In this document: positions 683-58,955 of the stretch, in pieces
How positions within the stretch are numbered: position 1 is the first letter of the stretch
Layout of the letters: every line of letters begins with the position of its first letter
Source: Bathymodiolus japonicus methanotrophic gill symbiont
GTDB taxonomy: Bacteria > Pseudomonadota > Gammaproteobacteria > Methylococcales > Methylomonadaceae
NCBI RefSeq assembly: GCF_019721995.1
Contig: NZ_BLYC01000021.1
Span: 1 to 60,230 of the forward strand
Length of the DNA stretch: 60,230 nt
Direction of reading: 5' to 3'
Notes under the pieces: model-generated
The model's input: the letters and a program-made list of their open reading frames with translations, nothing else
Database searches by the model: none
What the model was told of the DNA's origin: nothing
Position numbers and translations under genes: made by a program

Positions 683-961
683 CGCTGAAAATCATGGAAA
701 CGGAGCTTAGCGAAGTGGTGATTTTTAGTCCCTGATAGGCGACAGGGCAATTCGCTGATTCGACGTGTGCTAGCAGCACGCGAGAGGAGCAAGAATTGCA
801 TTCCGAATAGCCGTCCCGCCAGTGAGGTATAATGACGAAGCGGCTTTTGTGCGTAGTCGTTGCGGACGCAGGGCGTTCAGGGCATCTCCCATCCGCTGCG
901 TAGGTGAACGAATTATGGCGACAGGAGTCCCGGAATTTCGTGAGGTAGCATGGCGCGCCTG
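683..961 (-). repeat. R1 element
   Basis: This is a GC-richer non-coding element. On the complement it runs from CAGGCGCGCC (961) to CAGCG (683). It sits inside the IS66-type pseudogene. Joining the two flanks restores the TLQKI-DDPD reading seen uninterrupted in the paralogous copy at about 14690-14740, where the sequence is TLQKIEDPD. The insertion therefore left no target duplication and no deletion. Confidence 0.9.
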
Positions 962-1476
962 TATTTTTTTGAAGTGTTCCCGTGCCGACCTGCGATGTTT
1001 GTCCGCCAGAAGGCTTATCTGAATTTTTTTCGATTCCCTTTTTACGGGTTGGGATCACTTGCAGCTGGTGGTTTACTGCTATTTTTGTGGCTGATCTCAG
1101 TGTCACTCGTTGAGTAAATACCGTGACTAATAATAGAAATCACTTCCGTGCTGATTTGTAGCGCAGGCGATATATCACGCTCAGTTTCAAGTAACTGTTG
1201 GCATGACGATTGCGGAATCACATCGATGAAGTCTATTTCAAAGGGTAACCTGTGATGCTTTTAGGACAGGCTATTATCTCATGGTTTTCAAATCCCGATT
1301 TTCCTTGTTTTAGCGCTTTGTAAGCGCGAGTAAAAAGTCTCCGAGTCGTAGATGTTTAAGGGGACATTTTGTGATGACTATAGCGAAGAAGCAATAAAGC
1401 TGGATTATCGACCTTTGGGCAGTTTACTAAAATCACAAAACCAGACTAAAACCCTGTCAAGAACTTTTTAATTATT

Positions 1477-1767
1477 CAGGCGCGCCATGCTACCTCACAA
1501 CATTCTGGGACTCCTGTCACCACATTCATTCGCCTACGCAGCGAATGGGAGATGCCCTGGTCGCCCTGACGTCCGTCTCAACTACGTCAACTACGCACAA
1601 AACCCTGCTCAGTTAAGTCTACCTCAAATGGCTGGACGGCTATTCGGAATGCAATTCTTGCCTCCCTCGCGCGCTACTAGCGCACTTCGGATCAGCGAAT
1701 TGCCCTGTCGCCTACAGAGACTAAAAATCATCACTCCGCTTAGGCTCCGTTTCCCTGATTTTAAGCG
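1477..1767 (+). repeat. R1 element, diverged copy
   Basis: It runs from CAGGCGCGCC to a variant AAGCG end. The flanks are aattatt and tacgctgag. Joined, they equal the uninterrupted sequence at 16364-16379 of the second ISBst12-type copy. This gives a direct empty-site comparison with zero target duplication. Confidence 0.9.
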
Positions 1768-1783
1768 TACGCTGAGTAGTTAC

Positions 1784-1953
1784 AATACTTTTGTAGAACT
1801 TAGATCGTGCTCGGTCTGATTCATCAAAGGCCAACACACCTCAGTAATGCCATAACGTTTTAAAACTAAGACACACTCACCCGTAGCAAACAGTCCCAGG
1901 GTATACTTGCTTTACGAAATACCCAGGATAATGCGGCTACTTTGCCAATCTCC
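1784..1953. other. Unassigned remnant between IS end and R2
   Basis: The complement reads openly for about 43 codons (SKYTLGLFATGECVLVLKRY and onward) from about 1915 to 1784 and runs into the IS terminus. It is probably the tail of a gene cut by the IS. The family is not recognised. Confidence 0.3.
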
Positions 1954-2246
1954 CGCTGAAAATCAGGGAAACGGAGCCTAAGCGAAGTGATGATTTTTAG
2001 TCCGCGATAGCCGTAGGGCCGTTATTTTGTCGGAGTCTGAGCGTTAGCGAAGGTGGAGACAAAATAAAAGGCCATCCGACACGGCGTCAAGTCATTTGGA
2101 GCCTATGTTCCGACCCCTTGTTGGGTCGGGACGAGGTGACGAGGACGAATCGGGGCCGCCGGAGGCATAAGTGGTCGCGTTAAGTTTTTGCTGCTTGCTT
2201 GGGCTGGGATGCCCAAAACAAGCTTTCGCAAAAATAGCGACTCCCC
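1954..2246 (-). repeat. R2 element
   Basis: This is a 293-bp element. On the complement it starts GGGGAGTCGC (2246) and ends CAGCG (1954). It shares its terminal 50 bp with R1 but has an unrelated body with several strong hairpins, including CCGACCC/GGGTCGG and TTTTGTC/GACAAAA. Confidence 0.9.
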
Positions 2247-2436
2247 AAAAGACGTTGCTCGCTCAAACTTAGCCCAGCAAACAGAGTTCATTCAGGCAAT
2301 AAAAATGTCGTCGTATGGAATCCCTGGATCAAAGGCGCTGCTGCAATTAAGGACCTGGATAATGATGATTACAAACGGTTTATATGTCTGGAATTGCAAA
2401 TGCAGCGAGCATAGTGTGGAAGTTCAGCCCAATAGT
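2247..2436 (+). pseudogene. D-hexose-6-phosphate mutarotase (YeaD-like) 3' fragment
   Basis: The reading frame contains SGNKNVVVWNPW followed by IKGAAAIKDLDNDDYKRFICLE. This is the conserved C-terminal VVWNPW...DD.Y..(V/I)C(V/L)E block of the COG0676 aldose-1-epimerase-like family, which interconverts anomers of hexose 6-phosphates. A one-base shift then moves the ANAASIVWKFSP continuation into another frame. The 5' part is missing at the R2 element. It is a dead chromosomal-type gene remnant, which suggests past exchange with a chromosome. Confidence 0.6.
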
Positions 2437-2521
2437 GAATCCAGAATGACGGCTAATTATAGTCTAGGGTGATATGCGTAACCGGTAGGTAAGCGGTTAA
2501 ACTTCAAATCTATCCATGTTC

Positions 2522-2611
2522 CTAAAAACCAATGAGGGGCGAAACGCCAAATATGTTCTGGAAGCAGTGGTTAAAATGTGCTGAATCAGTAAAACCAGCT
2601 TCCATTGCTGC
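2522..2611 (-). pseudogene. AraC-family regulator, C-terminal fragment
   Basis: The complement encodes AMEAGFTDSAHFNHCFQNIF then GVSPLIGF and a stop. This is the second helix-turn-helix of AraC/XylS regulators, with the usual A..AGF.D.aHF...F....GvsP pattern. Everything upstream is replaced by an R3 element at 2612, so the gene is not functional. Confidence 0.75.
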
Positions 2612-2872
2612 CGCTGTCAGCCCCGGACGGGATGATAGTCTCCAGAAGGCGCAGGGAAATTTGCCAATCCGAAGTGCGCGATAGTGCGCGAGGGAGGCTA
2701 AAATTTTATCCCGAATAGCCGTAGAGCCATTTGTGGTAGCCATGACTGAGCTGCTTTGTGCTCAAGTCTGTGGCGGACGCAGGGCGTTCAGGGGATCTCC
2801 CATCCGCTGCGTAGGTGAACGAATTATGGCGACAGGAGTCCCGGAATTTCGTGAGGTAGCATGGCGAGCCTG
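2612..2872 (-). repeat. R3 element
   Basis: This is a 261-bp element. Its left end is R1-like, reading CAGGCTCGCC here on the complement from 2872. Its right end is different and forms the hairpin CTATCATCCC/GGGGCTGACAG before the final CAGCG (2612). Confidence 0.85.
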
Positions 2873-3713: not shown

Positions 3714-4537
3714 CTAGGGAGGGAGTAACTTTTTAAACTTCATTGGCAAGTTATCTACAAGTTCATGGACTGGGTTATTTGTCTTGGTGCGTGTAATGCC
3801 TGTAAGCCAATCTCTAACGGGATTAATAACATTACTTTCAATGATAGATTCTAACTGTTCATCAACAATCGTCCTGCTAAGCTTGTAGTTCCTGCAAATA
3901 ACTCAGGCGCGGCATGCTACCTCACGAAATTCCGGGACTCCTGTCGCCATAATTCGTTCACCTACGCAGCGGATGGGAGATGCCCTGAACGCCCTGCGTC
4001 CGCAACGACTACGCACAAAAGCCGCTTCGTCATTACTACCTCACTGGCTGGACGGCTATTCGGAATGCAATTCTTGCTCCTCTCGCGTGCTGCTAGCACA
4101 CGTCCGCTGCCAGCCATGGAGAGCGAAAGCGAGGGCTGGTAGTCCCCAGAAGGCGTAGGGCCGTTGTTTTGTCGGAATCGTAGCGCTAGCGTAGGTGTAG
4201 ACAAAATAAAAGGCATTCCGAAACGCCGTCGCTGAAAATCAGGGAAACGTAGCCTAAGCGAAGTGATGATTTTTAGTCCCTGATAGGCGACAGGGCAATT
4301 CGCTGATTCGACGTGTGCTAGCAGCACGCGAGAAGAGCAAGAATTGCATTCCGAATAGCCGTCCAAGCCAGTGAGGTAGTAATGACGAAGCGGTTTTTGT
4401 GCGTAGTCGTTGCGGACGCAGGGCGTTCAGGGCATCTCCCATCCGCTGCGTAGGTGAACGAATTATGGCGACAGGAGTCCCGGAATTTCGTGAGGTAGCA
4501 TGCCGCGCCTGTTCGTTCTGAATATTTTAACAATCAT
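3714..4537 (-). pseudogene. 71-aa plasmid protein interrupted by a composite R element
   Basis: The ATG at 4537 opens MIVKIFRTKV, and the frame is cut at 4512 by a 608-bp composite repeat. It resumes at 3903 as ICRNYKLSRTIVDEQLESII, then NPVRDWLTGITRTKTNN, and stops at 3714. Without the insert the gene is exactly 72 codons including the stop. The protein is unrecognised, basic and probably DNA-associated. It is divergent from the replication origin, so a role in replication or maintenance is possible. As DNA it is disrupted. Confidence 0.6.
3904..4511. repeat. Composite R element with inverted R1 ends
   Basis: R1 left ends lie at both outer borders (CAGGCGCGGC at 3904 and its inverse at 4511). 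Inside are a third hairpin variant (CTGCCAGCC...GGCTGGTAG, 4107-4143), R2-like body sequence and an R1 arm. The flanks join in frame in the 71-aa gene, so even the composite sits without a target duplication. Confidence 0.85.
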
Positions 4538-6829: not shown

Positions 6830-6910
6830 GTAAGCGTCAATTAAACCACACATTCTAAACCCCTTTAAAAAAGGGCAAGATAATACCTCCAATTAACTCC
6901 AGAGGTATTT

Positions 6911-7252
6911 ATGAGTCCATCTCAAAATATGGCAGCTATGCAAGAGCACATACCGCAATGGCGAGCCAGCCGTTTAACGCAGTCCGAGTATTGCAAAGCG
7001 CATGATATCAAGCCGCATATCTTTAGTTATTACAAAAAGAAATTCAGTTCGTCCCGTTCATCAGATCAACAAACCAGCCAATTGGTTCCGGTAAAATTTG
7101 TTGCCGATGATATGTTAGGTGGCTCAAGGCTATCTTCTGGTCCATCGCTTATCAAAGTCATTCATACCAATGGCTTTAGCCTGGAAATACAGGCTGATAC
7201 GGAACTCGGCACTTTAAAGCCCTTACTGGAATTAGTGCGGTCTATCTCATGA
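6911..7252 (+). CDS. tnpA: IS66 TnpA, accessory protein
   Basis: The 113-aa protein has the N-terminal helix-turn-helix pattern HIPQWRASRLTQSEYCKAHD typical of the IS66 OrfA/TnpA accessory protein. It is preceded by AGAGGT eight bases before the ATG. Its stop overlaps the tnpB start (ATGATAA), which implies translational coupling. Confidence 0.9.
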   Translation: MSPSQNMAAMQEHIPQWRASRLTQSEYCKAHDIKPHIFSYYKKKFSSSRSSDQQTSQLVPVKFVADDMLGGSRLSSGPSLIKVIHTNGFSLEIQADTELGTLKPLLELVRSIS

Positions 7253-7605
7253 TAAATGAGCTTGTGGTTAATCAGGTATATCTGGCGACAGGTGTTACAG
7301 ATATGCGTAAGTCCATTAACGGTTTGTCTCTGATTGTCTCAGAGCAGTTGGGTCATAATCCCTTAGCCGGGAGTGCTTTTGTCTTTTGTAATCGCTCTCG
7401 CGATAAACTGAAAATACTCTATTGGGAATGTAACGGATTCTGGCTCTATTATCGCCGCCTAGATAAGGGAAAGTTTCAGTGGCCAAACGAGTCGAACGAA
7501 CAGACTCTAACATTAAACTTACGGGAATTACACTGGTTACTGGATGGTTTGTCATACCAGCAAGTGCAGGCACACATCGCGGTTTCCGGTTTAAAAAATA
7601 ATTGA
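7249..7605 (+). CDS. tnpB: IS66 TnpB, accessory protein
   Basis: The 118-aa protein carries the family signature GVTDMRKSINGLS and the FVFCNRSRDKLKILYWE...GFWLYYRRLDKG block. The IS66 TnpB (PF05717) protein is required for transposition of three-gene IS66 elements. Its exact biochemical role is unknown. Confidence 0.92.
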   Translation: MINELVVNQVYLATGVTDMRKSINGLSLIVSEQLGHNPLAGSAFVFCNRSRDKLKILYWECNGFWLYYRRLDKGKFQWPNESNEQTLTLNLRELHWLLDGLSYQQVQAHIAVSGLKNN

Positions 7606-7693
7606 TAATCTAACTCGCATTATTGTGAAAAAAACTTACTAAAACAGTAAGATATACAATCTTGTTTAGTTCTTACATGGTATAATATATACC

Positions 7694-9247
7694 ATGAAAT
7701 TACTTCCTGAGACTCTGCCGGATGAGACGAATGCACTGCAAAAAATGGTGCTGGATTATCAGTCGACAGTGGATCAGTTACAGGAAAAACTGCAATGGTA
7801 TGAGGAACAGTTTCGTCTGCTTCAACACCAGCGCTTTGGTGCATCCAGTGAAAAGTGCCCTGATCAAATGGAGTTATTTAATGAAGCGGAATCAATTCTT
7901 GATGCCTTAGAGAAAGAAGAGTCTGATCTTGAAGAAACGGTTAGCTATCAACGTAAAAGGCCAGGTCGCAAACCACTATCCAGACATATCCCGCGAGAAG
8001 TCGTTCGCTATGAATTACCTGAAGCAGAACGTGTTTGTGACTGTGGTCATGCATTACATGAGGCTGGCGAAGACAAGTCAGAGCAGTTAGAAATCATTCC
8101 GGCTCAAATCAAAGTGATTGAACATGTCCAGGTAAAATATGCCTGTCGCGCTTGTGAAAACGGCATTATCAGTGTACCTAAACCGGCACAGCCCATTCCA
8201 CGCAGTTTTGCTTCACCCAGTTTATTAGCCTACATCATTGTGGCTAAGTTTATGGATAGCTTGCCACTCTATCGCCAGGAAACAATTTTCAAACGCTTAA
8301 GTATCGACCTTTCGCGTGCTACCTTGTCAAATTGGGTATTGAAGTCCGCTGAATTGCTTGCTCCCTTTTATGATCGACTGCATCAACTATTGATCCTGCA
8401 GAAAATTATCCAGGCCGATGAAACACCGCTGAATGTTATTCAGGATGGGCGAGAGACGAAATCAAAATCCTATATGTGGCTCTACCAGAGTGGTGGACAT
8501 GAGTCCGGGCAGCCGATTGTTTTGTATGATTATCAGGCAACTCGAGCGGGAGCGCATGCGGCTAGCTTTTTACTGGGATTTTCTGGTCACTTACAAGTGG
8601 ACGGCTATGCCGGTTATCACGCCCTTGCATCAGATAACTGTACCCTCGTCGGATGTATGGCGCATGCACGTCGCAAATTCGATGAAGCTCTCAACGCACT
8701 GCCCAAAACGAGCCGTAAAGATAAAATGGGCATGGCGCAAACTGCATTACGCAAGTTTACTCGTCTCTATGGGCTTGAAAAACAATTTAAAGACCTGACG
8801 ATAGATCAGCGTTATTTGTTGCGTCAGGAAAAAAGCAAACCTTTGCTGGAAGACTTAAAGCAGTGGTGCGATGACAATGTTACCAGAACCGCAAAAGACA
8901 GCTCAATAGGTAAAGCCATACGCTATACCATTAACCAGTGGGATAGTCTGGTTCGTTATATTGAGGATGGAAATTTACAGCTTGATAATAATGCCGCTGA
9001 ACGCCATATAAAACCGTTTGTGATTGGGCGTAAAAACTGGCTGTTTAATCAGACCCCACGTGGTGCTAATGCCAGTGCACTGCTATACAGCCTTGTGCAA
9101 ACGGCGGTGGCCAACAATCTGGAGCCGTTTGATTACCTAAAGTATTTACTCACTGAGCTACCCAGGCTTGGTAGGCATTATGAACCAGATGCACTGGATC
9201 AATTTCTACCTTGGAACTTAATCGAAAAAATTAAGCCTTTAAAGTAA
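7694..9247 (+). CDS. tnpC: IS66 TnpC, DDE transposase
   Basis: The 517-aa protein has the usual IS66 order: an N-terminal coiled coil (about 20-45), a Cys-rich zinc-binding region (CDCGHAL and CRACENG), and a DDE core. The first Asp is in QADETPLNV, the second in VDGYAGYHA, and the Glu in NNAAERHIKPF. The frame is complete, so the element may be active. Confidence 0.93.
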   Translation: MKLLPETLPDETNALQKMVLDYQSTVDQLQEKLQWYEEQFRLLQHQRFGASSEKCPDQMELFNEAESILDALEKEESDLEETVSYQRKRPGRKPLSRHIPREVVRYELPEAERVCDCGHALHEAGEDKSEQLEIIPAQIKVIEHVQVKYACRACENGIISVPKPAQPIPRSFASPSLLAYIIVAKFMDSLPLYRQETIFKRLSIDLSRATLSNWVLKSAELLAPFYDRLHQLLILQKIIQADETPLNVIQDGRETKSKSYMWLYQSGGHESGQPIVLYDYQATRAGAHAASFLLGFSGHLQVDGYAGYHALASDNCTLVGCMAHARRKFDEALNALPKTSRKDKMGMAQTALRKFTRLYGLEKQFKDLTIDQRYLLRQEKSKPLLEDLKQWCDDNVTRTAKDSSIGKAIRYTINQWDSLVRYIEDGNLQLDNNAAERHIKPFVIGRKNWLFNQTPRGANASALLYSLVQTAVANNLEPFDYLKYLLTELPRLGRHYEPDALDQFLPWNLIEKIKPLK

Positions 9248-9284
9248 ATTGTGTAGCCTGTCTAGTGGGAAGAATGACGCTTAC

Positions 9285-12755: not shown

Positions 12756-12828
12756 GGGGAGTCGCTATTTTTGCGAAAGCTTGTTTTGGGCATCCCAGCC
12801 CAAGCAAGCGGCAAAAACTTAACGCGAC
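12756..12828 (+). repeat. R2 left-end fragment
   Basis: It holds the first 73 bp of R2 (GGGGAGTCGC to aacgcgac), cut at the start of the MITE at 12829. Confidence 0.85.
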
Positions 12829-15056: not shown

Positions 15057-16095
15057 ATGAAATGTTATCAAGAAGTAAGTTGCCACAATTGTCGCTGTAG
15101 CACTATCATGAAATCAGGAAAGAATGCTCAAAATATACAGCGGTATCGCTGCAAAAATAGTGCCTGCCCAACTCAAACATTTATGCTGGACTATCGCTAT
15201 AATGCATGTGTGCCTGGAGTCCAAGAAAAAGTCGTCGAAATGGCTATTAATAGCAGTGGTATTAGAGACACCGCACGGGTTCTGAAAATCAATAAAAATA
15301 CAGTCATCAGCATCCTGAAAAGCAAAGAAGATAGCCTTGTACAGGTAAATCCTGTTTTTCTATCTCAAAAATCAGAAACACCTTTAGACGTCCGGCTGGA
15401 GCTTGTTTGCGAAGAAGTTGAGATTGATGAACAATGGTCATTTGTAGGTAAAAAGTCGAATCAGCGATGGTTATGGCATGCTGTTGATCATGCGACTAAT
15501 ACAGTCATTGCTTATGTATTTGGCAAGCGTAAAGATGATGTTTTCAAAGAGCTAAAAGCCTTACTGACTCCTTTTGAAATAAGCAGATATTATACAGATG
15601 ACTGGGGGGCTTATGAGCGAAACTTAGACGCTGAAAATCATGGAAACGTAGCTTAGCGAAGTGGTGATTTTTAGTCCCTGATAGGCGACAGGGCAATTCG
15701 CTGATTCGACGTGTGCTAGCAGCACGCGAGAGGAGCAAGAATTGCATTCCGAATAGCCGTCCAGCCAGTGAGGTAGTAATGACGAAGCGGCTTTTGTGCG
15801 TAGTCGTTGCGGACGCAGGGCGTTCAGGGCATCTCCCATCCGCTGCGTAGGTGAACGAATTATGGCGACAGGAGTCCCGGAATTTCGTGAGGTAGCATGG
15901 CGCGCCTGTGTAAATGAACATGAAATAGGCAAACAAAACACTCAAAAAATTGAACGAAAAAACCTAAATTTTAGAACATGGATTAAACGCTTAACGCGTC
16001 GAACAATCTGTTTTTCCAAAATAGAACAAATGCATGATATTGTCATTGGACTATTAATTAATAAAGTCGAATTTGGACGAGATATTCATGCCTAA
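15057..16095 (+). pseudogene. IS1-family transposase interrupted by R1
   Basis: The N-terminal part (15057-15628) has a Cys zinc finger (CHNCRCSTIMKSG...RYRCKNSAC). It continues with a helix-turn-helix (GIRDTARVLKINKNTVIS) and the catalytic start EIDEQWSFVGKK and YTDDWGAYERNL. After R1, the frame resumes at 15909 as VNEHEIGKQNTQKIERKNLN and ends KVEFGRDIHA. Joining gives ERNLD-VNEHEIGKQNTQKIE, the normal IS1 sequence, so the coding sequence was complete before R1 arrived. Confidence 0.9.
15629..15908 (-). repeat. R1 element inside IS1
   Basis: This 280-bp copy has flanks aacttaga and tgtaaatg that join in frame (gat gta aat). It shows precise, duplication-free insertion. It makes the IS1 transposase terminate early at the DNA level. 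Confidence 0.95.
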
Positions 16096-16694: not shown

Positions 16695-16733
16695 GTAAGC
16701 GTCAATTCTCTCCACCTAGACAAGCTACCCTAA

Positions 16734-18287
16734 TTACTTTAGAGGCTTAATTTTTTCAATCAAGTTCCAGGGCAAAAACTGATCCAGTGCTTCTGGTTCA
16801 TAATGCCTACCCAGCTTGGGTAGTTCAGTTAATAGGTATTTCAGGTAATCAAAAGGTTCCAGGTTATTAGCAACGGCTGTTTGCACAAGACTGTAAAGTA
16901 GTGCGCTGGCATTTGCACCGCGTGGTGTCTGGTTAAACAGCCAGTTTTTACGTCCAATCACAAACGGTTTGATATGCCGTTCAGCTGCATTATTATCAAT
17001 TTGTATATTACCGTCATCAATATAGCGGATCAAGCTACCCCACTGGTTAATAGTGTAACGAATGGCTTTACCTATTGCGCTGTCCTTTGCTGTCTTGGTA
17101 AGGTTGTTATCGCACCACTGCTTTAACTCTTCCAGTAAAGGTTTGCTTTTTTCCTGACGCTGTAAATAACGTTGCTCTATCGTCAGGTCTTTGATCTGTT
17201 TTTCAAGTGCATACAGTCGGGCAAACTTACGTAATGCGGTTTGAGCCAGCCCCATTTTATTCTTGCGACTCTCTTTAGGGAGGGCTTTTAGCGCTTCATC
17301 GAATTTACGCCGCGCATGTGCCATACACCCCACGAGGATACAATCATCTGATGCCAGTGCATGATAGCCTGCATAGCCATCTACCTGCAAGTGACCTGAA
17401 AAGGCCCGCAAGAAGCTTTCAGCATGCGCTCCTGCCCGCGTTGGCTGATAATCATACAAAACGATCGGGTGCTCGGATTCATGCTCACCACTCTGATAGA
17501 GCCACATATAGGATTTCGATTTCGTCTCTCGACCATCCCGAATCACATTTAAGGTTGTTTCATCGGCCTGGAGGATCTTCTGTAGAATCAGCAGAGCATG
17601 CAGTCGATCATAAAAGGGCTGGAGCAATTCAGCGGACTTTAATACCCAGTTAGATAGCGTGGCACGAGAAAGGTCAACACTTAAGCGCTTGAAAATGGTT
17701 TCCTGCCGGTAAAGTGGCAGGCTATCCATGAACTTGGCGACAATAATGTAAGCTAATAAACTTGCCGAGGCAAAACTACGAGGAATGGGCTGTGCGGGTT
17801 TTGGTGCACTGATAATGCCATTTTCACAGGTGCGGCAGCCATACTTGATCTGTATATGTTCAATGACTTTGATCTGGGCAGGAATGATTTCTAACTGCTC
17901 TGACTTGTCTTCGCCAGCCTCATGCAATGCATGACCGCAGGCACAAAAACGCTCTGCTTCAGGTAATTCATAACGGATAACTTCGCGCGGGATATCTCTG
18001 GATAATGGCTTGCGGCCTGGCTTTTTACGCTGATAGCTTAGGGTTTCTTCAGGGTCGGAATCATCCTGCTTTAAGCTATCAAGAATGGACTCCGCTTCAT
18101 TAAACAACTCCATTTGACCCGGGCATTTCTCACTGGAGGTGCCAAAACGCTTATGTTGCAACAGACGAAACTGCTCCTCATACCATGTCAGTTTTTCCTG
18201 TAATTGATCCACTGTCGACTGATAGTCCAGCACCATTTTGTGCAGTACATTCGTCTCGTCTGGCAGTGTTTCAGGAAGTGATTTCAT
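16734..18287 (-). CDS. tnpC: IS66 TnpC, DDE transposase
   Basis: The 517-aa protein has the catalytic Asp, Asp and Glu in LQADETTLNVI, QVDGYAGYHAL and NNAAERHIKPF. The zinc region is CACGHAL...CRTCENG. It is intact and identical to the copy at 20499. Confidence 0.95.
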   Translation of the reverse strand: MKSLPETLPDETNVLHKMVLDYQSTVDQLQEKLTWYEEQFRLLQHKRFGTSSEKCPGQMELFNEAESILDSLKQDDSDPEETLSYQRKKPGRKPLSRDIPREVIRYELPEAERFCACGHALHEAGEDKSEQLEIIPAQIKVIEHIQIKYGCRTCENGIISAPKPAQPIPRSFASASLLAYIIVAKFMDSLPLYRQETIFKRLSVDLSRATLSNWVLKSAELLQPFYDRLHALLILQKILQADETTLNVIRDGRETKSKSYMWLYQSGEHESEHPIVLYDYQPTRAGAHAESFLRAFSGHLQVDGYAGYHALASDDCILVGCMAHARRKFDEALKALPKESRKNKMGLAQTALRKFARLYALEKQIKDLTIEQRYLQRQEKSKPLLEELKQWCDNNLTKTAKDSAIGKAIRYTINQWGSLIRYIDDGNIQIDNNAAERHIKPFVIGRKNWLFNQTPRGANASALLYSLVQTAVANNLEPFDYLKYLLTELPKLGRHYEPEALDQFLPWNLIEKIKPLK

Positions 18288-18375
18288 GGTGTTTATTATA
18301 CCACCAAACAGGGTTAAATAATCATTTAACTGGCTGTTTTATTAGATATTTTCCACGTAAAATAACGGCAACAAA

Positions 18376-26608: not shown

Positions 26609-26609
26609 G

Positions 26610-41505: not shown

Positions 41506-41655
41506 TTAGGATAACAGCTGAACTGTACGACATTTCAGATACTCACTACAACCCCAAAATTTCTTTCCTTGATTATCTCCACGATTAGCAGTTCCTAGTA
41601 TCATTTCTTTGCCACATTTAGGGCAAGAATTAATTAAGTGGACTTCCCCAACGCA
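41506..41655 (-). CDS. Topoisomerase-type zinc ribbon peptide
   Basis: The complement encodes INSCPKCGKEMILGTANRGD, then NQGKKFWGCSEYLKCRTVQL and a stop at 41506. Two CxxC-like pairs with GKKFWGCSEYLKC match the small zinc ribbons (zf-C4_Topoisom) found at topoisomerase I C-termini and as stand-alone proteins. It overlaps the repA 3' end in another frame. No ATG, GTG or TTG occurs between the upstream stop and the first Cys, so either the start is unconventional or the gene is a remnant. Confidence 0.45.
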   Translation of the reverse strand, partial: CVGEVHLINSCPKCGKEMILGTANRGDNQGKKFWGCSEYLKCRTVQLLS

Positions 41656-44423: not shown

Positions 44424-47372
44424 ATGGAAACAAATGTTTACACGGAAAGACAAGCTTTAAGTGATTTAGTTAAGTGGTCGTTAGATAGACCATCATGGCA
44501 ACGCGATGCTTTGAAAAGAATTGTGCTGCAAGAGGGTGATTTGTCCTCAATAGATATTGAGGAACTTACAAAAATTTGTCTTGATTCATCCTCTTCATTC
44601 GATCCTCTTACAAGTGATGATGTTAAGGCAGGGATAGTTACAGGTGAGCCAGTATCAATAGTGAGCGTTGAAAATCCAATTGGCATTAATGCCCTTGCAG
44701 AGAAACAACGTCTTGAGTTTTCAAAAACGGGATTAAGTATAGTCTATGGAGATAATGGATCGGGCAAATCAGGCTATGCTAGGATTCTTAAACATGCTTG
44801 CCATACGCGTGATGGTAAGCTTGATATTCGTGGTGATATTCAAGATATTGAACCAAAGGCGCAATCTGCGAATATTATTTTTTCAACAGGTGATAAGGAG
44901 ACAACGCTTAATTGGAATCCTAAAAAATCAAGCCTTCCGAACTTATCATCTGTGAGTGTCTTTGACTCTAAGAGTGCGAATATTCATGTAGATGAAACAA
45001 ATCCTATTGCTTATACCCCGGAACCGATGCGGATTTTAGGTAAACTTTCAGATATATGCGACACGATAAAAAATAATTTAGATAATCAAATTGCCCTGCT
45101 TATCAAGCAAACACCAGAAGCGATCAAAACTCCATCTTTAAATGAGAAAACCAAAGCGGGTATATTCCTTTATGGGCTGTCTGACAAATCAAGCCTAGAG
45201 ACGCTCAAAGAGTTATCTACATTAAGCGAAGAAGAAAAAACACGCCTATATCAGTTAGAAATTGATTTTGCACAAAACCCTAAAATATCGGCAGAAAAAA
45301 TTGAGCGACAAAATAAATCTCTCGTTTTATATAAACAGCAGTTTCAAAAGCTACATAATGCGATTACAGAAGAATCCTTTAATCGCCGTGATAGTTTGAG
45401 ACAAGAACGAGATAATAAAATGAAGCTCGCTAAATTAGCGTCTGAAAAGATTTTTGCAGCTTCTCCATTGCCTGATGTTGGTAAGGAAGTCTGGCAGCAG
45501 CTTTGGGAGGCTGCTAGGCAGTATTCAGATCAAGTAGCGTACCCAAATAAGAAGTTCCCAGAAGCCAATGCAGACGGAGATTTCTGTGTGTTGTGCCAAC
45601 AAGAGCTTGATGAAGAGGCTGTTTTAAGGCGTTTAACTTTTGAGGAATTTATTCAAGGCACGACTAAATCTGATGAAACAACGGCCATAACTGCATATAA
45701 AGAAAATATTATTCAATCTAAAACGGCAGATATTTCTCTTTCTACTATTAGGGATGCAATTGCTTTTCTTGAAAAAGATTTAGGCGAAAGCAAACTGGCT
45801 AAAAATGTCCGTGTTGCATTGATTACAGCCAAATGGCATTTACGGATATATATGCGTGGGTTATCACCTCAAGCAAAGGCTATTGAAATCCCTGAAAGTC
45901 GGCTAAATGAAATAAACCAATCCCTGTCTAAGCGCGCTTCTCAACTCTTAGCAGATGATAAAACACCAGAGCGCATAGCGTTAATAAGGGAATTAAATGA
46001 GCTTAAAGATCGTAAACATTTAAGCTCAATATTTGAAGATGTAAAAAAAGAAATATCTCGTCAACAAGAAATTGCAAAGATCAAAAAAAAATAGGACAAC
46101 GGCAAAGAGAGGAGTAACGAATAAAAATAAGGAGTTATCAGATAAGTTGGTTACAGATGCTTTAAAAGAGCGTTTTTATCGTGAGGTAGAAAAAATTAAT
46201 CTTTTGGGTAGCCTGCCTGTAGAGCTACGCAAAGTTAAAGACCGAAATGCGGTTTCTTTTTTTCAGGTTTGTTTTGCTGAAAAACCCAATGAGCCTGTTG
46301 GTGACGTTTTTAGTGAGGGAGAATATCGCTGTATTGCCCTGGCTACTTTTCTAGCAGAGCTTGTAACCTCAAGTTTGCATTCAGGTATTATATTTGATGA
46401 TCCTATGTCCTCGCTTGACCATATTAATAGAAAATATGTTGCTGCTAGGTTAGTCGAAGAATCTCAACACCGTCAGGTAATTGTATTTACGCATGATCTT
46501 ACGTTTCTTTATGAGCTGAAATGCGCAGCAGCAGCAGAAGAAAATAGCTCTGCCAATGTGCATTATCAAACCATCAAACGCAAGGAAAATCGCCCCGGAT
46601 ATGTTGGGGGTGATCTTCCTGTAAAAGCAACATCAGCTATAGGTGTTGCCCATACTCTTCGTTCAGAGATAAAGACTGCGCGGCCTAATTTTAATAATTG
46701 GTCTGATATGCAGCGCACTATATTTTCAAAAGGTATTATTGAGCAATTGCGTGAGGCCTGGGATCAAGGAATTGCTGACTTTATTTCCCCTGTTCTTGGG
46801 AGGTTCGATAATCGTATTAAGGGCAATAGCCTATTTAAGCTGGAAATTCTAAATAAAAATGATATTGATACTATCAAAATAGCCCGCTCACACCTATCAG
46901 AATGGTTGCATTCTGCATCCGAAGCTATCAATCAAACAGAAATTACCTGTGATACTCTGATTACTCAAATTAGTACTCTTGAAAAATGGCTACACGATAT
47001 AAAGAAACGTCAGAAGGCGGGGAGTCGCTATTTTTGCGAAAGCTTGTTTTGGGCATCCCAGCCCAAGCAAGCGGCAAAAACTTAACGCGACCACTAATGC
47101 CTCCGGCGGCCCCGATTCGTCCTCGTCACCTCGTTCCGACCCAACAAGGGGTCGGAACATAGGCTCCAAATGACTTGACGCCGTGTCGGATGGCCTTTTA
47201 TTTTGTCTCCACCTTCGCTAACGCTCAGACTCCGACAAAACAACGGCCCTACGGCTATCGCGGACTAAAAATCATCACTTCGCTTAGGCTCCGTTTCCCT
47301 GATTTTCAGCGGAAGCTATACGACCAAAGTAAATATCCACTTATACTCAATGTTCCAGTTTTTTTATCTTGA
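44424..47372 (+). pseudogene. RloC/AAA_13-type ABC ATPase, frameshifted at A9 and cut by R2
   Basis: Part 1 (44424-46094) has an N-terminal helical block (WSLDRPSWQRDALKRIVLQE), Walker A VYGDNGSGKSGYAR (about 109-116), a long coiled coil, and a CVLCQQ zinc-hook-like motif near residue 388. After A9 (46083-46091) the frame shifts by one. Part 2 carries the ABC signature FSEGEYRCIALATFL, Walker B IIFDDPMSSLD and H-loop VIVFTHDLTFL. Its tail contains LREAWDQG and ARSHLSEWLHS. After R2 (47019-47311) the frame resumes as KLYDQSKYPLILNVPVFLS. Relatives include anticodon-nuclease-type phage defence proteins. The nuclease function is an inference. Confidence 0.75.
47019..47311 (+). repeat. R2 element near the 3' end of the ATPase gene
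   Basis: This 293-bp copy has flanks cagaaggc and gaagctatac that rejoin in frame (RQKA-KLYDQ). As DNA it replaces the last 20 residues of the ATPase with a short unrelated tail. Confidence 0.95.
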
Positions 47373-50010: not shown

Positions 50011-50303
50011 CGCTGAAAATCAGGGAAACGGAGCCTAAGCGAAGTGATGATTTTTAGTCCGCGATAGCCGTAGGGCCGTTATTTTGTCGGAGTCTGAGCG
50101 TTAGCGAAGGTGGAGACAAAATAAAAGGCCATCCGACACGGCGTCAAGTCATTTGGAGCCTATGTTCCGACCCCTTGTTGGGTCGGGACGAGGTGACGAG
50201 GACGAATCGGGGCCGCCGGAGGCATAAGTGGTCGCGTTAAGTTTTTGCTGCTTGCTTGGGCTGGGATGCCCAAAACAAGCTTTCGCAAAAATAGCGACTC
50301 CCC
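50011..50303 (-). repeat. R2 element at IS66/IS6 junction
   Basis: This is a complete 293-bp copy whose two flanks belong to different elements (IS66 tnpC and IS6). It therefore marks homologous recombination between R2 copies rather than a simple insertion. Confidence 0.92.
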
Positions 50304-50464
50304 GATCAAGCAACAATTGATGGAATTGAAACGGCACATATGATCCGAAAGGGACAGTTGTCTGAGGAAAGTATTCCTGCTTATAAGCAGTTTATGGCTT
50401 TAGCAGGATAGTTATGCCTGAAGACCAGGAGGTCTGCGCTTTTGATAGTTATTGCGACAGAACC
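50304..50464 (+). pseudogene. IS6 3' end fragment
   Basis: It encodes TIDGIETAHMIRKGQLSEES to FMALAG and the terminus GCGACAGAACC. Confidence 0.88.
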
Positions 50465-50481: not shown

Positions 50482-50761
50482 CGCTGAAAATCATGGAAAC
50501 GTAGCTTAGCGAAGTGGTGATTTTTAGTCCCTGATAGGCGACAGGGCAATTCGCTGATTCGACGTGTGCTAGCAGCACGCGAGAGGAGCAAGAATTGCAT
50601 TCCGAATAGCCGTCCAGCCAGTGAGGTAGTAATGACGAAGCGGCTTTTGTGCGTAGTCGTTGCGGACGCAGGGCGTTCAGGGCATCTCCCATCCGCTGCG
50701 TAGGTGAACGAATTATGGCGACAGGAGTCCCGGAATTTCGTGAGGTAGCATGGCGCGCCTG
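50482..50761 (-). repeat. R1 element upstream of AAA ATPase
   Basis: This complete 280-bp copy ends 17 bp before the ATG at 50779, so it separates that gene from its original promoter. Confidence 0.92.
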
Positions 50762-50778: not shown

Positions 50779-51562
50779 ATGGGTAAACATATTGAACAAT
50801 TAGAATCATGGTTTAAGAGTCGCTCCAACTGGCTTCAAGATGCAACACGTAGATTATTAGAAAAAGGTGACTTAGATCAGTTTGATTTAGATGAACTGTA
50901 TAAAATATGTGGTATTGAAGCAGGGATTAATTTTGAAGATGACATTATTCCAGAGTTTGTTCCCATGCAAACAGGTTCTTTTACAATGGATGAGGAAGGT
51001 TCAAAGGTTGAGCTAAGGTCTATAGGAAATATTAAGGGAATAAATGCTCTTCATCCAAACGAGCCAGTATTGTTTAATGAAGGTTTAACCGTGATTTATG
51101 GTCAAAATGGGTCGGGTAAATCTGGGTATACGAGATTATTAAAAAAAATCTGTGGTGCGAAGAAAATTGGTTCTATATATCCAGATGTCTTTAGTACTAA
51201 ACCTGATTGCCAAGTTTGTGATATTGGATATACGATTGAGGATGAGTCATATAATGTGAGTTATGATATTTCTTTAGGTATTAATGACCAACTTTCTTCA
51301 ATAGAAATATACGATAGTGATTGTGGTTCTGTATATGTTAATGAAGAAAATGAATTAGCTTATGAACCAGAGTTATTAAGGGTTTTTAGCCGCCTTATTG
51401 AAATAAGTGATGAACTATCTGAAAAATTTAATTTTGCTTCAGAGAGGCTTGTTTCAACAATGCCCACTATACCTCAAAGCTATTTGGAAACACCATCAGG
51501 CAAATGGCTAGGAACAATTAAGCATGATACAGCCTCTACAATCACCGATAAAGCATGCCATC
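50779..51562 (+). pseudogene. Second RloC/AAA_13-type ATPase, 5' part only
   Basis: ATG 50779 follows a CAGGGAG box. The 261-codon remnant is homologous in layout to the gene at 44424. It has an N-terminal block LESWFKSRSNWLQDATRRLL, a GDLDQFDLDELYKIC element, and Walker A VIYGQNGSGKSGYTRLLKK. It also has the conserved SSIEIYDSDCGSVYVNEENE block (compare SSVSVFDSKSANIHVDETN). It stops at R2. The downstream flank does not look like the rest of the gene, so the 3' part was lost through recombination. Confidence 0.8.
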
Positions 51563-51850
51563 GGGGAGTCGCTATTTTTGCGAAAGCTTGTTTTGGGCAT
51601 CCCAGCCCAAGCAAGCAGCAAAAACTTAACGCGACCACTTATGCCTCCGGCGGCCCCGATTCGTCCTCGTCACCTCGTCCCGACAAGGGGTCGGAACATA
51701 GGCTCCAAATGACTTGACGCCGTGTCGGATGGCCTTTTATTTTGTCTCCACCTTCGCTAACGCTCAGACTCCGACAAAACAACGGCCCTACGGCTATCGC
51801 GGACTAAAAATCATCACTTCGCTTAGGCTACGTTTCCCTGATTTTCAGCG
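51563..51850 (+). repeat. R2 element (288 bp)
   Basis: It carries a 5-bp deletion in the CCGACCC hairpin but is otherwise complete. It truncates the ATPase gene. Confidence 0.93.
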
Positions 51851-52258: not shown

Positions 52259-53080
52259 GGTAAAAAACATTAAGATCACAAGAAAAAGAATTTAATCTAA
52301 TTGAAGAAGAAATCATTGGTTGAGTAAAATCTGGTTTTGCTTTAAACCTAAGAGCTAAGGGAGCGAAAAACTTCAGAATCAAAAACATACAATCATATTC
52401 TCAAAAAACCCATCAGAAGCCTCTATGGAGCCAGCAAACAAACACAACAGACCCAACCTTTATGGAGAGTGCTTGCTTGAAATAAAAGAGTTAAATATTG
52501 AAATATACAAAAGATAAACTATCTTACAGGGAGATGTTTTTTTGTTTTGATGATTTAAAAACTATCAATTCCCCTCCTGCCTTTTTTTACTATGGTTTTA
52601 AATAAATCAGCTGTCTTGAAGCGGAAAGCAAAAGACTCTTTACAAGTATTTCTAGATACTACAAGTTACTTGTAGGTACTAGTAGTAGAGAAAAAACAAA
52701 AAAACCTACACGCCATATATAACAGTATATACAGCGATTTTTTAAAAACATAAAGTACACGCCATTTACGTATAAGCACCAACCCAACAAAGTCATTTAA
52801 TATTTTTTGGCCTCGAAATGTGATACTTATTTTTTACATCATCATCCTTCACACAACTCCAACCACCAAGCGAACCTACTTCCTTAGCTCCGTTTCCATG
52901 ATTTTCAGCGATAGAAAATTAATTTATTCTATCTTTTTCGTGGATATTAGCAAAAAACATCATCCTGGTTAGTTTTTTACCGTTTCCAGGGGTCAACACA
53001 GAATTCGGACCATAAACCCCGTTAAGCATTTTTCTCGCAGCGATTTATCAGGATCAACATAACGATAAAAAGACATATTG
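52259..53080. other. Mostly gene-free AT-rich stretch
   Basis: No intact gene is seen. LRAKGAKNFRIKNIQS near 52340 resembles a remnant at 19200-19290. A 31-bp imperfect palindrome lies at 52652-52682. An R right-end fragment (ctccgtttccatgattttcagcg) ends at about 52911. Between 52700 and 52860 are two acacgccat words but no clear gene. Confidence 0.5.
52652..52682. promoter_or_regulatory. Operator-like palindrome
   Basis: CTAGATACTACAAG-TTA-CTTGTAGGTACTAG, with a further TACAAGTA half-site at 52641, is a dyad-symmetric cluster typical of repressor sites. No neighbouring regulator gene is visible. Confidence 0.5.
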
Positions 53081-54397: not shown

Positions 54398-54580
54398 CGC
54401 TGGAAATCCTGGAAACGGAGCTTTAGCGAAGTGAAGATTTTTAGTCCGCGATAGCCGTAGGGCCGTTGTTTTGTCGGAGTCTGAGCGTTAGCGAAGGTGG
54501 AGACAAAATAAAAGGCCCTACGGCTATCGCGGACTAAAAATCATCACTTCGCTTTGGCTCCGTTTCCCTGATTTTCAGCG
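54398..54580. repeat. Inverted dimer of the R2 right end
   Basis: CAGCG hairpin ends lie at both borders and the R2 body sequence runs inward from each, giving a near-perfect 183-bp palindrome. Such end-to-end dimers are unusual for a simple insertion. Confidence 0.88.
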
Positions 54581-55900: not shown

Positions 55901-56108
55901 CGCTGAAAATCATGGAAACGGAGCTTAGCGAAGTGGTGATTTTTAGTCCCTGATAGGCGACAGGGCAATTCGCTGATTCGACGTGTGCTAGCAGCACGCG
56001 AGAGGAGCAAGAATTGCATTCCGAATAGCCGTCCAGCCAGTGAGGTAGTAATGACGAAGCGGCTTTTGTGCGTAGTCGTTGCGGACGCAGGGCGTTCAGG
56101 GCATCTCC
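55901..56108 (-). repeat. R1 element, truncated by R2
   Basis: It holds the right-end 208 bp of R1. The left end is missing where R2 begins. Confidence 0.92.
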
Positions 56109-56401
56109 CGCTGAAAATCAGGGAAACGTAGCCTAAGCGAAGTGATGATTTTTAGTCCGCGATAGCCGTAGGGCCGTTGTTTTGTCGGAGTCTGAGCGTT
56201 AGCGAAGGTGGAGACAAAATAAAAGGCCATCCGACACGGCGTCAAGTCATTTGGAGCCTATGTTCCGACCCCTTGTTGGGTCGGGACGAGGTGACGAGGA
56301 CGAATCGGGGCCGCCGGAGGCATAAGTGGTCGCGTTAAGTTTTTGCTGCTTGCTTGGGCTGGGATGCCCAAAACAAGCTTTCGCAAAAATAGCGACTCCC
56401 C
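56109..56401 (-). repeat. R2 element inside R1
   Basis: This complete 293-bp copy is joined directly to R1 on one side and to an IS6 fragment on the other. Confidence 0.93.
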
Positions 56402-56593
56402 GACTCTTTCTTCCATAATTTCTTCAAGGTCGCGATACGAAACGTCATACCTGACATAAAAGAAAACAGCATAAAGAATGACATCTTTTTGAAAGTGAGT
56501 GCCTTTGAAGCTGAGCATGTGATCCACCTTTTATTGAAATTGAGAATTATGATAGCAGATAACGTCGGGAAGGGGGATTTATGCGACAGAACC
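56402..56593 (-). pseudogene. IS6 5' end fragment
   Basis: The complement from the terminus at 56593 encodes MLSFKGTHFQKDVILYAVFF to YRDLEEIMEE, then is lost at R2. Confidence 0.88.
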
Positions 56594-56909: not shown

Positions 56910-56973
56910 CGCTGTCAGCCCCGGACGGGCTGATAGTCTCCAGAAGGCGCAGGGAAATTTGCCAATCCGAAGT
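56910..56973 (-). repeat. R3 right-end fragment
   Basis: Only the CTATCAGCCC/GGGGCTGACAG hairpin end and about 40 bp of body remain, joined to IS6 sequence. Confidence 0.85.
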
Positions 56974-57134
56974 GGATGAAACGTATATCAAAGTGAAGGG
57001 GCAGTGGACCTATTTATACCGAGCTGTTGATAGTCAAGGTGATACGCTTGATTTCATGCTTTCTGAGCGCCGTGATGAAGAGGCTGCAACCGCATTTTTC
57101 AAACAAACGATTAACAATAATGGCTTTCCTGATG
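56974..57134 (+). pseudogene. IS6 internal fragment
   Basis: It encodes DETYIKVKGQWTYLYRAVDS to FKQTINNNGFPD. Both ends are missing. Confidence 0.88.
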
Positions 57135-57156
57135 GGTGTGGCTTTAATATAATGTT

Positions 57157-57494
57157 TTATGCAGTTTGGTGCTCCACACCAAATTGAATAATCTTATCCC
57201 AAAACTGTTGCCATCTATTTGTAGTCTGAACTAAAGCTCTTAAGCTCAGCACTACTTTTGCTCCTTTGTTTTTCCAGCGCATACCCGAACCATAAAGTCG
57301 TTGCTTAACCAATGTTTTGCAAGCGGCTTCAGTGACACCAGAGCCAATCGGTAATTTTTTTTCAACATGGTGAGCATAGTTCATTCTGTCTTTGGTGATA
57401 TTATTGCTAAAGTAGGTAATGGTCGAATCCAGATCATCTTTTATAGATTTTGTAAGTCTAGTGTTTGTGAGGGCTTGTAATTCGTCTAAAATAG
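57157..57494 (-). pseudogene. ISKra4-family transposase, C-terminal fragment
   Basis: The complement encodes AILDELQALTNTRLTKSIKD, then KKLPIGSGVTEAACKTLVKQ, RLYGSGMRWKNKGAKVVLSL and RWQQFWDKI. The IGSGVTEAACK.LVKQR...SGMRW block is characteristic of ISKra4 transposases. It is 5'-truncated. Confidence 0.75.
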
Positions 57495-57535
57495 CTTATG
57501 CTGCATTTTTTTCGTGTTTAAGCTGTGAACACCGC

Positions 57536-57796
57536 CGCTGTCAGCCCCGGACGGTCTGATAGTCTCCAGAAGGCGCAGGGAAATTTGCCAATCCGAAGTG
57601 CGCGATAGCGCGCGAGGGAGGCTAAAATTTTATCCCAGAATAGCCGTAGAGCCATTTGTGGTAGCCATGACTGAGCTGCTTTGTGCTCAGTCTGTGGCGG
57701 ACGCAGGGCGGCTGGAGCATCTCCTATTCGCTGCGTAGGTGAACGAATTACGGCGACAGGAGTCCCGGAATTTCGTGAGGTAGCATGGCGCTCCTG
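57536..57796 (-). repeat. R3 element
   Basis: This is a complete 261-bp copy with an R1-type left end (CAGGAGCGCC variant at 57796) and the GC-rich right hairpin at 57536. Confidence 0.92.
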
Positions 57797-58105
57797 TAAT
57801 GAATAAAACTGTCCTGCAGGAGATAAACCATCCCCTCCGAACATTTGTCCTTTTTTGATCATTTTCATTATCTCAATACCTGCTAATGTTTTTTGGGCGC
57901 TATGGAAGTTTTTAAAACCCAACATAGAGCGAGTTATTCGTTTAATGTTCCTATGATCTTGTTCGATAATATTATTCAAATATTTACATTGACGGATTAC
58001 AATGGGGTCCACTTTAGGGGCATCTGAGTCTTCCTTATTGATGCTATTAAGCGCTGCTTTATTGGAACCACTCTTATCAATATTGACTAATTCAGGACGG
58101 CCATT
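57797..58105 (-). pseudogene. IS6-B transposase, C-terminal fragment
   Basis: The complement encodes NGRPELVNIDKSGSNKAALN, then IIEQDHRNIKRITRSMLGFK and MFGGDGLSPAGQF. It ends at the R3 border. The N-terminal part is replaced by the MITE at 58106. Confidence 0.9.
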
Positions 58106-58380
58106 GGTTCTGTCGCAAAAAACAAATCACCATATTACCTACGATCATAAGATTAAATTTAAGCCAAATAAGGTTCGCATGTTCATCTAAAAATGGTTCT
58201 ATTTTTCAAGCCATTGCTTTTCTAAATACCACATGGTACTTGGCTTTAACACTAGGTTATCGTAATTTTAACAATGTGGTGAGAATGTTTTTCTCCTGCG
58301 ATGGTGTTTTGTCCATTTATCGCATAAAAACAGGTTACAGTTGATTTTACACAAATATTTGTTTTTTTTGCGACAGAACC
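58106..58380 (+). repeat. IS6-type MITE (275 bp)
   Basis: GGTTCTGTCGCA and GCGACAGAACC ends. It contains the decayed transposase stretch catggtacttggctttaaca. Confidence 0.9.
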
Positions 58381-58419
58381 CAGATAACGTCGGGAAGGTG
58401 GATTTATGCGACAGAACCT
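58381..58419. repeat. IS6 end remnant
   Basis: These 39 bp match the left end of the first IS6 type (cagataacgtcgggaaggtg to atgcgacagaacc). Confidence 0.8.
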
Positions 58420-58807
58420 TTAGTCCTGTATTGCGCTTAATTTCTCGTGAAATATTGCTTTGGCTACGGCCCAAGGATTTTGCTATTTTATTATGAGAAG
58501 TTCCCTCGCTGTCAGCCCCGGACGGGCTGATAGTCTCCAGAAGGCGCAGGGAAATTTTGCCAATCCGAAGTGCGCGATAGCGCGCGAGGGAGGCTAAAAT
58601 TTTATCCCGAATAGCCGTAGAGCCATTTGTGGTAGCCATGACTGAGCTGCTTTGTGCTCAGTCTGTGGCGGACGCAGGGCGGCTGGAGCATCTCCTATTC
58701 GCTGCGTAGGTGAACGAATTACGGCGACAGGAGTCCCGGAATTTCGTGAGGTAGCATGGCGCGCCTGTTTTTAGTTCGATTTCTATATAATGTCTTTCTT
58801 CAGGACA
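58420..58807 (-). pseudogene. IS30-family transposase, N-terminal fragment interrupted by R3
   Basis: The complement encodes EERHYIEIELKK, is cut by R3 (58507-58767), and resumes as GTSHNKIAKSLGRSQSNISR and EIKRNTGLK. The joined helix-turn-helix is the IS30 signature. Both outer ends are truncated. Confidence 0.82.
58507..58767 (-). repeat. R3 element inside IS30
   Basis: This complete 261-bp copy has flanks that rejoin in frame (IEIELKK-GTSHNKIAK) without duplication. It shows that R3 uses the same insertion mode as R1 and R2. Confidence 0.95.
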
Positions 58808-58955
58808 CAGGCGCGCCATGCTACCTCACGAAATTACGGGACTCCTGTCGCCATAATTCGTTCACCTACGCAGCGGATGGGAGATGCCCTGAACGCCCTG
58901 CGTCCGCAACGACTACGCACAAAAGCCGCTTCGTCATTACTACCTCACTGGCTGT
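58808..58955 (+). repeat. R1 left-half fragment
   Basis: It starts CAGGCGCGCC and is lost after cctcactggctg. Confidence 0.9.

Follow-up and report, generated by a model that had tools for sequence, protein, structure and literature searches.

The genome of the Bathymodiolus japonicus methanotrophic gill symbiont (Methylococcales) contains three families of dispersed, non-coding elements with exact ends, R1 (280 bp), R2 (295 bp) and R3 (261 bp). We describe them here in contig NZ_BLYC01000021.1, whose whole length of 60,230 nucleotides we call the window (contig C21 of an assembly of 4.97 Mb in 109 contigs), in further stretches of the same genome, and in relatives. These are probably non-autonomous elements that move as single-stranded DNA, the mobilizing enzyme being an HUH Y1 transposase that belongs to the IS200/IS605-RAYT superfamily and acts in trans. 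Movement of this kind is suggested by a C-N-N-N rule at both ends of the elements, by a left hairpin whose shape is kept, and by a strand bias.

Three families of modular elements

Full copies, defined by identity above 85% and a start at base 1, were counted in 1,260,230 bases, made up of the first 480 kb of contig C1, 320 kb of C2 and 280 kb of C3, together with six C4 stretches and the window. The window holds 15 such copies (5 R1, 7 R2 and 3 R3), and the examined sequence as a whole 294 (97 R1, 117 R2 and 80 R3). By arithmetic from these counts, the load is about 82.6 kb, or 6.6% of the examined sequence; were the remaining sequence alike, the genome would hold about 1,160 copies. Searches of the genome with a single query score 40 candidates and are not totals. 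The R2 copies are near-identical, with a mean minor fraction of about 1% per column, and thus have spread recently.

The families share modules: the left 60 nt or so are common to R1 and R2 (about 86%), and the right 237 nt or so to R1 and R3 (about 80%). The two ends of an element are unlike each other (CGCTG... versus ...CCTG or ...CCGA), and there is no terminal inverted repeat. Element ends can also exist alone as units, since we found two free-standing palindromes of the left end, 48-49 bp long (C1:71277 and C1:303494), and two 100-bp forms that consist of a left plus a right end (C1:167260 and C3:231466). A first-pass annotation of the window had proposed these repeat families; they are real, modular and non-coding, and its figure of about twenty full or partial copies is a fair one (15 full copies, the R1-like variant at 1477-1767, and several fragments). 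It had also suggested looking for a larger relative that carries a gene. Left-right end pairs of up to 5 kb were listed over the 1.26 Mb, and no gene-bearing relative was found among the 14 pairs longer than 450 bp whose right end is free, that is, outside any full copy. Ten of these are mostly R sequence or have no open reading frame (ORF) above 110 aa, and four hold unrelated genes. Most of the 14 arose by deletion or by nesting of one R copy in another; the ORFs of the four longest (173-278 aa) belong, by eye, to other insertion sequences (IS) or to ordinary genes.

Insertion without target duplication

A comparable paralogous site was available for 132 of the 294 copies, the other 162 having none. 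The flank-to-flank distance, with R2 taken as 295 bp, shows a net change of 0 at 116 of these sites (R1 24/27, R2 52/61, R3 40/44). At the other 16 sites the change is +1 (three sites), +3, +4, +20 (two sites), +23 (the copy in the IS4-type gene of the window), between +131 and +183 (five sites), -1, -3 and -6. As a rule, then, no target bases are duplicated, and only a minority of sites show a deletion. The zero duplication claimed in the first-pass annotation therefore holds at 116 of the 132 sites; duplicated or deleted target bases, which it had named as evidence against its proposal, are confined to the remaining 16.

When 60 nt of flank from either side were joined, an empty site was found for 51 of 141 distinct copies. 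The junctions were labeled clean for 20 of 20 R3 and 5 of 7 R1 copies, and 22 of 24 R2 rows, read by eye, show two surplus bases at the junction. Because the labels clean and gapped are automatic, and a few of the comparisons are poor or lie between R copies, the paralogue distances serve as the main test. The terminal GA, AA, GC or GT of R2 is absent from the empty sites; R2 thus ends two nucleotides later than first annotated, and is 295 rather than 293 bp long. These last two bases vary among the 117 R2 copies (GA 69, AA 21, GC 16, GT 7, other 4), and the ends of R1 and R3 are nearly fixed. The variable dinucleotide was considered as a signal of mechanism; it is not clearly one, and is partly linked to an internal column.

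A tetranucleotide rule at both ends

The left target follows the pattern C-N-N-N^: of 290 distinct sites in the symbiont genome, 283 have C at position -4 (R1 95/97, R2 110/113, R3 78/80). At position -1, T is preferred and G is rare (8/290). The same C is found in 113 of 117 left ends from fetched loci outside the examined stretches of this genome, a set that includes overlapping loci and a few from the symbiont's own genome that other searches brought in, so that not all are independent. In Methylotuvimicrobium buryatense 5G, a cultivated relative, 23 of 24 distinct intact left ends have it, as read by eye. The right-end tetranucleotide is CCTG in 97 of 97 R1 and 79 of 80 R3 copies; among 113 R2 right ends it is CCGA in 67, CCAA in 21, CCGC in 14, CCGT in 7 and another in 4. 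CTTG stands after the M. buryatense elements. The last four bases of the elements thus obey the same C rule as the left target. To our knowledge, a one-base target rule would be unusually loose for single-strand transposition.

Terminal hairpins

The left end folds into a hairpin that begins 2 nt inside the element. In R3 (left end LE-B) the stem is CTGTCAGCCC/GGGCTGATAG; in a relative it is CTGTTAATCC/GGATTAATAG, where the changes are compensatory and the third pair is again G.T. R1 and R2 have a left end (LE-A) whose stem differs from that of LE-B, with the same foot (CGCTG...TAGTC) and mostly the same G.T pair. Among 13 distinct LE-B ends, 7-9 of 10 Watson-Crick pairs are kept, and at least 8 of 10 pairs are kept in 75 of 88 distinct LE-A ends; these counts pool ends from this and other genomes, and are biased toward pairing because the best-pairing 3' arm was selected. 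The shape of the left hairpin is therefore kept while the sequence of its stem changes. The right hairpins of R2 and of the M. buryatense element likewise have the same shape with different stem sequences. Relative to shuffled sequences, fold energies give z -3.6 and -6.0 for LE-B and z -2.9 and -4.5 for R2-type right ends. At three M. buryatense loci (L175, L176 and L177), a 20-nt left end, GTGCCTGCGGTCTACTCAAC, replaces the usual first 17 nt and constitutes another left-end module.

Orientation relative to replication

With full copies masked, 220 of the 294 copies lie along the leading-strand direction as given by local positive GC skew (P 5.5e-18), and each family shows the agreement (R1 74/97, R2 86/117, R3 60/80). 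In the window, 8 of 15 copies are in the skew direction, and the bias is not clearly followed there. Lagging-strand targeting of the top strand of an element predicts such a bias; it was seen in this one genome, where gene orientation is a possible confounder.

Proposed mechanism

A Y1 enzyme would recognize the hairpins near the element ends and cut after C-N-N-N, which on the left would lie in the target and on the right would be the element's own last four letters. The ends would then be joined, giving an insertion with nothing duplicated. Use of the lagging-strand template as target would lead to a preferred orientation relative to the fork. The first-pass annotation did not recognize the kind of element; fixed-C tetranucleotides, a terminal hairpin and a strand bias are hallmarks of HUH/Y1 systems (IS200/IS605, PATE, REP; see below).

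Copies in the window

The full copies, fragments and variants in the window are as follows; the gene names IS1, IS6, IS4, IS30, ChaN-like and ATPase are those of the first-pass annotation.

683-961, plus strand: R1 copy, 98.9% to the R1 reference; paralogous sites at -1 nt in seven pairings
1477-1767, minus strand: R1-like variant whose left end is closer to that of R2; about 83% to R1 copies
1954-2248, plus strand: R2 copy of 295 bp, with the 2-nt end correction
2612-2872, plus strand: diverged R3 copy, 94.7%
3904-4104, minus strand: R1 fragment (positions 80-280)
4230-4511, plus strand: R1 copy, 97.2%
12756-12828, minus strand: R2 right-end fragment (221-293)
15629-15908, plus strand: R1 reference copy, within an IS1-type transposase gene
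32705-32984, plus strand: R1 copy in IS6-type sequence; gapless empty site over 71 aligned bases
33576-33870, minus strand: R2 reference copy of 295 bp, in an IS4-type transposase gene
39206-39500, minus strand: R2 copy in a ChaN-like gene, without a paralogue
47017-47311, minus strand: R2 copy in an ATPase-like gene, without a paralogue; removal of 293 bp gives the longer frame
50011-50305, plus strand: R2 copy
50482-50761, plus strand: R1 copy, identical to the reference
51561-51850, minus strand: R2 copy, 5 bases shorter
52878-52910, minus strand: left-end fragment
54398-54580, no strand assigned: two R2-type left ends, head to head
55901-56109, plus strand: truncated R1 (1-209), ending where R2 starts
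56109-56403, plus strand: R2 copy
56910-56974, plus strand: R3 left-end fragment (1-66)
57536-57796, plus strand: R3 copy, 98.5%
58507-58767, plus strand: R3 reference copy in IS30-type sequence
58507-58533, plus strand: R3 left-end hairpin (CG, a 10-bp stem with one G.T, TC); DNA fold, 1 of 200 shuffles as good
58808-58954, minus strand: R1 right-end fragment (134-280)

According to the first-pass annotation, precise removal of these copies restores a coding frame or the empty paralogue. This holds for the R1 copy in the IS1-type gene, where joining the flanks opens 198+61 codons, and removal leaves 71+27 codons open across the junction in the IS6-type sequence and 20+62 codons at the 71-aa gene (3904-4511). 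In the three genes interrupted by R2, the frame is restored when 293 bp are removed (200+115 codons for IS4, 68+58 for ChaN-like, 199+19 for the ATPase), but not when 295 bp are removed. The empty paralogue of the IS4-type gene is 23 bases longer, in 50 pairings. Its frame is open with 293 bp because 23 target bases were lost, such that the remainder is in frame if the two terminal bases are kept. A similar loss of target, or an end at 293 bp, is possible in the ChaN-like and ATPase copies. In the IS30-type sequence all 14 paralogue pairings have a net change of 0, but no long frame runs across the joint; the copy at 683 is off by one base in its pairings, also with no long frame, and no open frame was found upon removal of 1477-1767. 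The minus-strand copies at 33576-33870 and 39206-39500 have the right flank AGCTT in common, and neither leaves an open frame unless the last two bases of R2 stay in place.

Occurrence in other genomes

R2 was matched in 27 of 61 genomes (14 of 30 genera) and R3 in 16 of 61 (3 of 30 genera), the symbiont's own genome included. A genome scan with one R2-type pattern gave at least 34 stretches, mainly from methane-oxidizing Methylococcales. Carriers include the Bathymodiolus platifrons methanotrophic gill symbiont, M. buryatense 5G, Methylomonas, Methylomicrobium and Methylicorpusculum, as well as several metagenome-assembled genomes and a single contig recorded for a thiotrophic mussel symbiont. 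In M. buryatense, 22 copies are within 2 nt of the full query length at 98-100% identity, plus others, and 26 copies cover at least 286 of the 303 query bases at 96-100%. A search of plasmids and phages with R2 alone found R2-like DNA in four Methylococcales plasmid records and no match in phages. Among viral contigs, the R2-type pattern occurs in five stretches on two contigs, one of which equals a mussel-symbiont contig in size. The titles and abstract openings returned by a literature search describe no such elements in Methylococcales.

Search for the mobilizing enzyme

Y1 matches were found in all 15 of 15 R-bearing genomes. We scanned 50 Y1 loci, 49 of relatives and one of the symbiont itself, which are the best-scoring loci rather than all Y1 genes; five of them (L087, L094, L095, L104 and L144) gave a hit to R with an E-value no higher than 0.05. 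At L087 and L118, an IS200 TnpA gene of genome G006 lies among R-like pieces. This candidate carrier was rejected, as it is an IS200 with its own TATGCAC-type hairpins that inserted in an R2-like element. At L144 (1917-2063), a left-end palindrome stands beside a relative's RAYT gene; a direct duplication of about 50 bp on its flanks sets it apart from the other insertions observed.

The symbiont genome has 22 matches to PF01797 (Y1), mostly fragments, and 24 to NF033573 (IS200 TnpA). No uninterrupted full-length IS200 TnpA is listed in its 109 contigs, from which one could be missing; the best match has one TAG. Among eight R-bearing genomes, TnpA of the IS200 type scored above the cut-off in three (G000, G022 and G035), and in none of G016, M. 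buryatense (G027), G028, G054 and G059. The RAYT model NF047646 is the best match for all four Y1 proteins tested, two of which exceed its 80-bit cut-off: three from M. buryatense score 64, 83 and 196 bits, and the single one detected in G059 scores 67 bits. The only intact RAYT-type gene found in the symbiont genome, on contig C5, encodes 222 aa and scores 65 bits against NF047646, below that cut-off. A class of RAYT of about 180 aa (alignment A1) was rejected as the current mobilizer, having a single 50-residue match in this genome; the class is strong in G018, G007, G014 and G023, where searches with R2 and R3 gave nothing. As judged from these protein matches, the evidence leans toward a RAYT-type rather than an IS200-type enzyme, with no one RAYT class tied to R throughout.

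Several observations weigh against a Y1 enzyme of this superfamily acting on these elements. No transposase flanked by R ends was found in the parts examined, and no Y1 locus among the 50 has a cognate R pair on both sides except L087. No R occurs in the 1.2 kb to either side of the symbiont's own RAYT locus (L036). The C5 gene, considered as the partner of R, is flanked instead by its own AAAGGGGACG-type repeat, and its best identity to the fetched loci of relatives is 30-41%, with two weak ones at 22-26%. Eight IS200-type copies (in G004, G006, G008 and G009) have ends that are unlike R ends by eye. For LE-A (z -0.7) and the right hairpin of R1 and R3 (z -1.5), many shuffled sequences fold equally well. 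The GT[AG]G that REPs have at the hairpin foot is absent from the left hairpin, whose 5' sequence is CNNN-CG, and there is no room for the usual 5' guide because only 2 nt lie between the cut and the hairpin. Lastly, the orientation bias is not significant in M. buryatense, a complete genome whose skew was sampled at 20 places with orientation assigned by eye: 20 of 33 copies agree (P 0.30, three short matches left out), or 21 of 36 for all matches (P 0.41), or 18 of 28 away from skew switches (P 0.18).

Alternative explanations

An origin as a DDE transposon or a miniature inverted-repeat transposable element (MITE) is rejected, as in the first-pass annotation, given the lack of both a terminal repeat and a target duplication. 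The search of Rfam that it had recommended gave no family at the gathering threshold, and we likewise reject an intron or a known RNA. Another possibility is that ribozyme- or intron-like RNAs insert through reverse splicing or target-primed reverse transcription. RNA mobility of this type would also produce zero duplication, precise ends without a terminal repeat and one orientation relative to the fork, and R2 and R3 do fold strongly as RNA (z -3.9 and -5.8). R1, however, folds no better than shuffles (z -0.6). Of five window matches to Rfam up to E 10, none is a group I or II intron, and the only one that overlaps an R fragment (54449-54531, a microRNA model) reaches 24 bits where 90 are needed. 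Moreover, the ends are not of the group II type, the 48-49 bp palindromes and 100-bp forms stand alone, and the right end shares the C rule of the target. We consider movement at the RNA level very improbable.

It is somewhat less improbable that a resident IS200/IS605 TnpA, rather than a RAYT, mobilizes its own derivatives, i.e., that the R elements are true PATEs of a known IS, although we still regard this as unlikely. TnpA remnants are common in the symbiont genome, as the PF01797 and NF033573 matches show; the palindrome-associated transposable elements (PATEs) of Haloquadratum walsbyi are related to IS605-type ends, and according to the report on them they too moved although nearly all IS200-type genes were broken (PMC3119063). 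Nevertheless, the lack of an uninterrupted TnpA in the 109 contigs, the lack of one above the cut-off in five of eight R-bearing genomes, including the complete M. buryatense with its 26 copies, and the dissimilarity of the inspected IS200 ends all speak against it. A recombinase outside the HUH class acting in trans, for example of the IS110/IS1111 type or a tyrosine or serine recombinase, can insert without duplication, and the failure to identify a cognate Y1 gene would fit it. From such an enzyme, however, we would not expect a strand bias, terminal hairpins conserved in shape, or a tetranucleotide rule at two ends, and we therefore assign it little probability.

Relationship to known systems

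Taken together, the R elements appear to work like a PATE-like single-strand transposon. As described in the PATE report, PATEs share with them the absence of terminal inverted repeats and of target duplication, palindromes near the ends, a length too short for a transposase (261-295 bp for R) and short versions made only of ends (here the 100-bp forms). The R elements differ in being bacterial, in their extrapolated number of about 1,160 copies and in the one-base target rule CNNN; furthermore, no IS605-type element with ends matching R was found among the eight IS200-type copies inspected by eye. The relation of end palindromes to IS605-type elements is a finding of that report, not part of its table definition (PMC3119063). 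The R elements are within the table definition of PATEs, without the link to an IS605-type element, and outside the definitions of repetitive extragenic palindromes (REPs), MITEs and introns.

With REPs, and with the related BIMEs and REPINs associated with RAYT (TnpAREP), as PMC6006769, PMC8266576 and PMC3116915 present them, R elements share high-copy hairpin units, an irregular pair in the hairpin and an inferred mobilization in trans, and the two free-standing palindromes of the R left end, at 48-49 nt, are similar to REPs. REPs are 21-65 nt palindromes with GT[AG]G at the 5' foot, whereas R units measure 261-295 bp and are without it; characterized TnpAREP enzymes cut at C|T (or CA), whereas the rule for R is CNNN^; and REPs flank their own RAYT, whereas no R-flanked RAYT gene was found among the 50 Y1 loci.

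In the IS200/IS605 family, a target tetranucleotide flanks the left end and an equivalent tetranucleotide ends the right end, as laid out in PMC6006769. It is in this layout that the R elements agree with the family, and the loose NNN is unusual. Like IS608 and ISDra2, they have a left target tetranucleotide, a related one at the right end, end hairpins, no duplication and, in one of the two genomes compared here, a preference for the lagging strand. Unlike these, they have no internal tnpA, their tetranucleotide is constant in its first base alone, and the left hairpin lies 2 nt from the cut, with no space for a 4-nt 5' guide. With MITEs they share small size, lack of coding sequence and many copies, but not terminal inverted repeats or target duplication.

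Other features of the window

A type III restriction-modification pair is encoded on the minus strand at 23549-32457 (REase_III, 938 bits; MTase_III, 718 bits), beside DUF4391 and a helicase that matches the HKD+Snf2 defense model (435 bits). Two matching stretches of 2,461 bp with three genes (113, 118 and 517 aa) lie inverted and 475 bp apart at 16695-19155 and 19631-22091; a relative of them, 81-84% identical, is found at about 6830-9270. A 556-aa protein at 44424-46094 (plus strand), just upstream of an R2-interrupted gene, matches the defense candidate PDC-S06 (349 bits). Replication initiator protein A is encoded at 41634-42575 on the minus strand (Pfam RPA, 282 bits); because of this match, the contig is possibly a plasmid, either free or integrated.

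Implications

More tentatively, the R elements might represent a gene-free class found throughout the Methylococcales, whose single-strand transposase requires no more of its target than a single fixed base (C at -4), without an autonomous partner, in which case a domesticated host RAYT would be maintaining about 7% of a 5-Mb genome in the form of parasitic single-strand elements; we regard this wider proposal as possible but doubtful. Movement of REPs by RAYT has long been inferred; since REPs are tiny and old, it has seldom been observed. R elements are large, near-identical and recently spread, and provide hundreds of exact insertion sites and an explicit cut rule. M. buryatense, with R copies and no IS200-type TnpA above the cut-off, makes the mobilization of hairpin elements in trans by RAYT directly testable, and the load of 6.6% shows the extent to which such elements can fill a genome.

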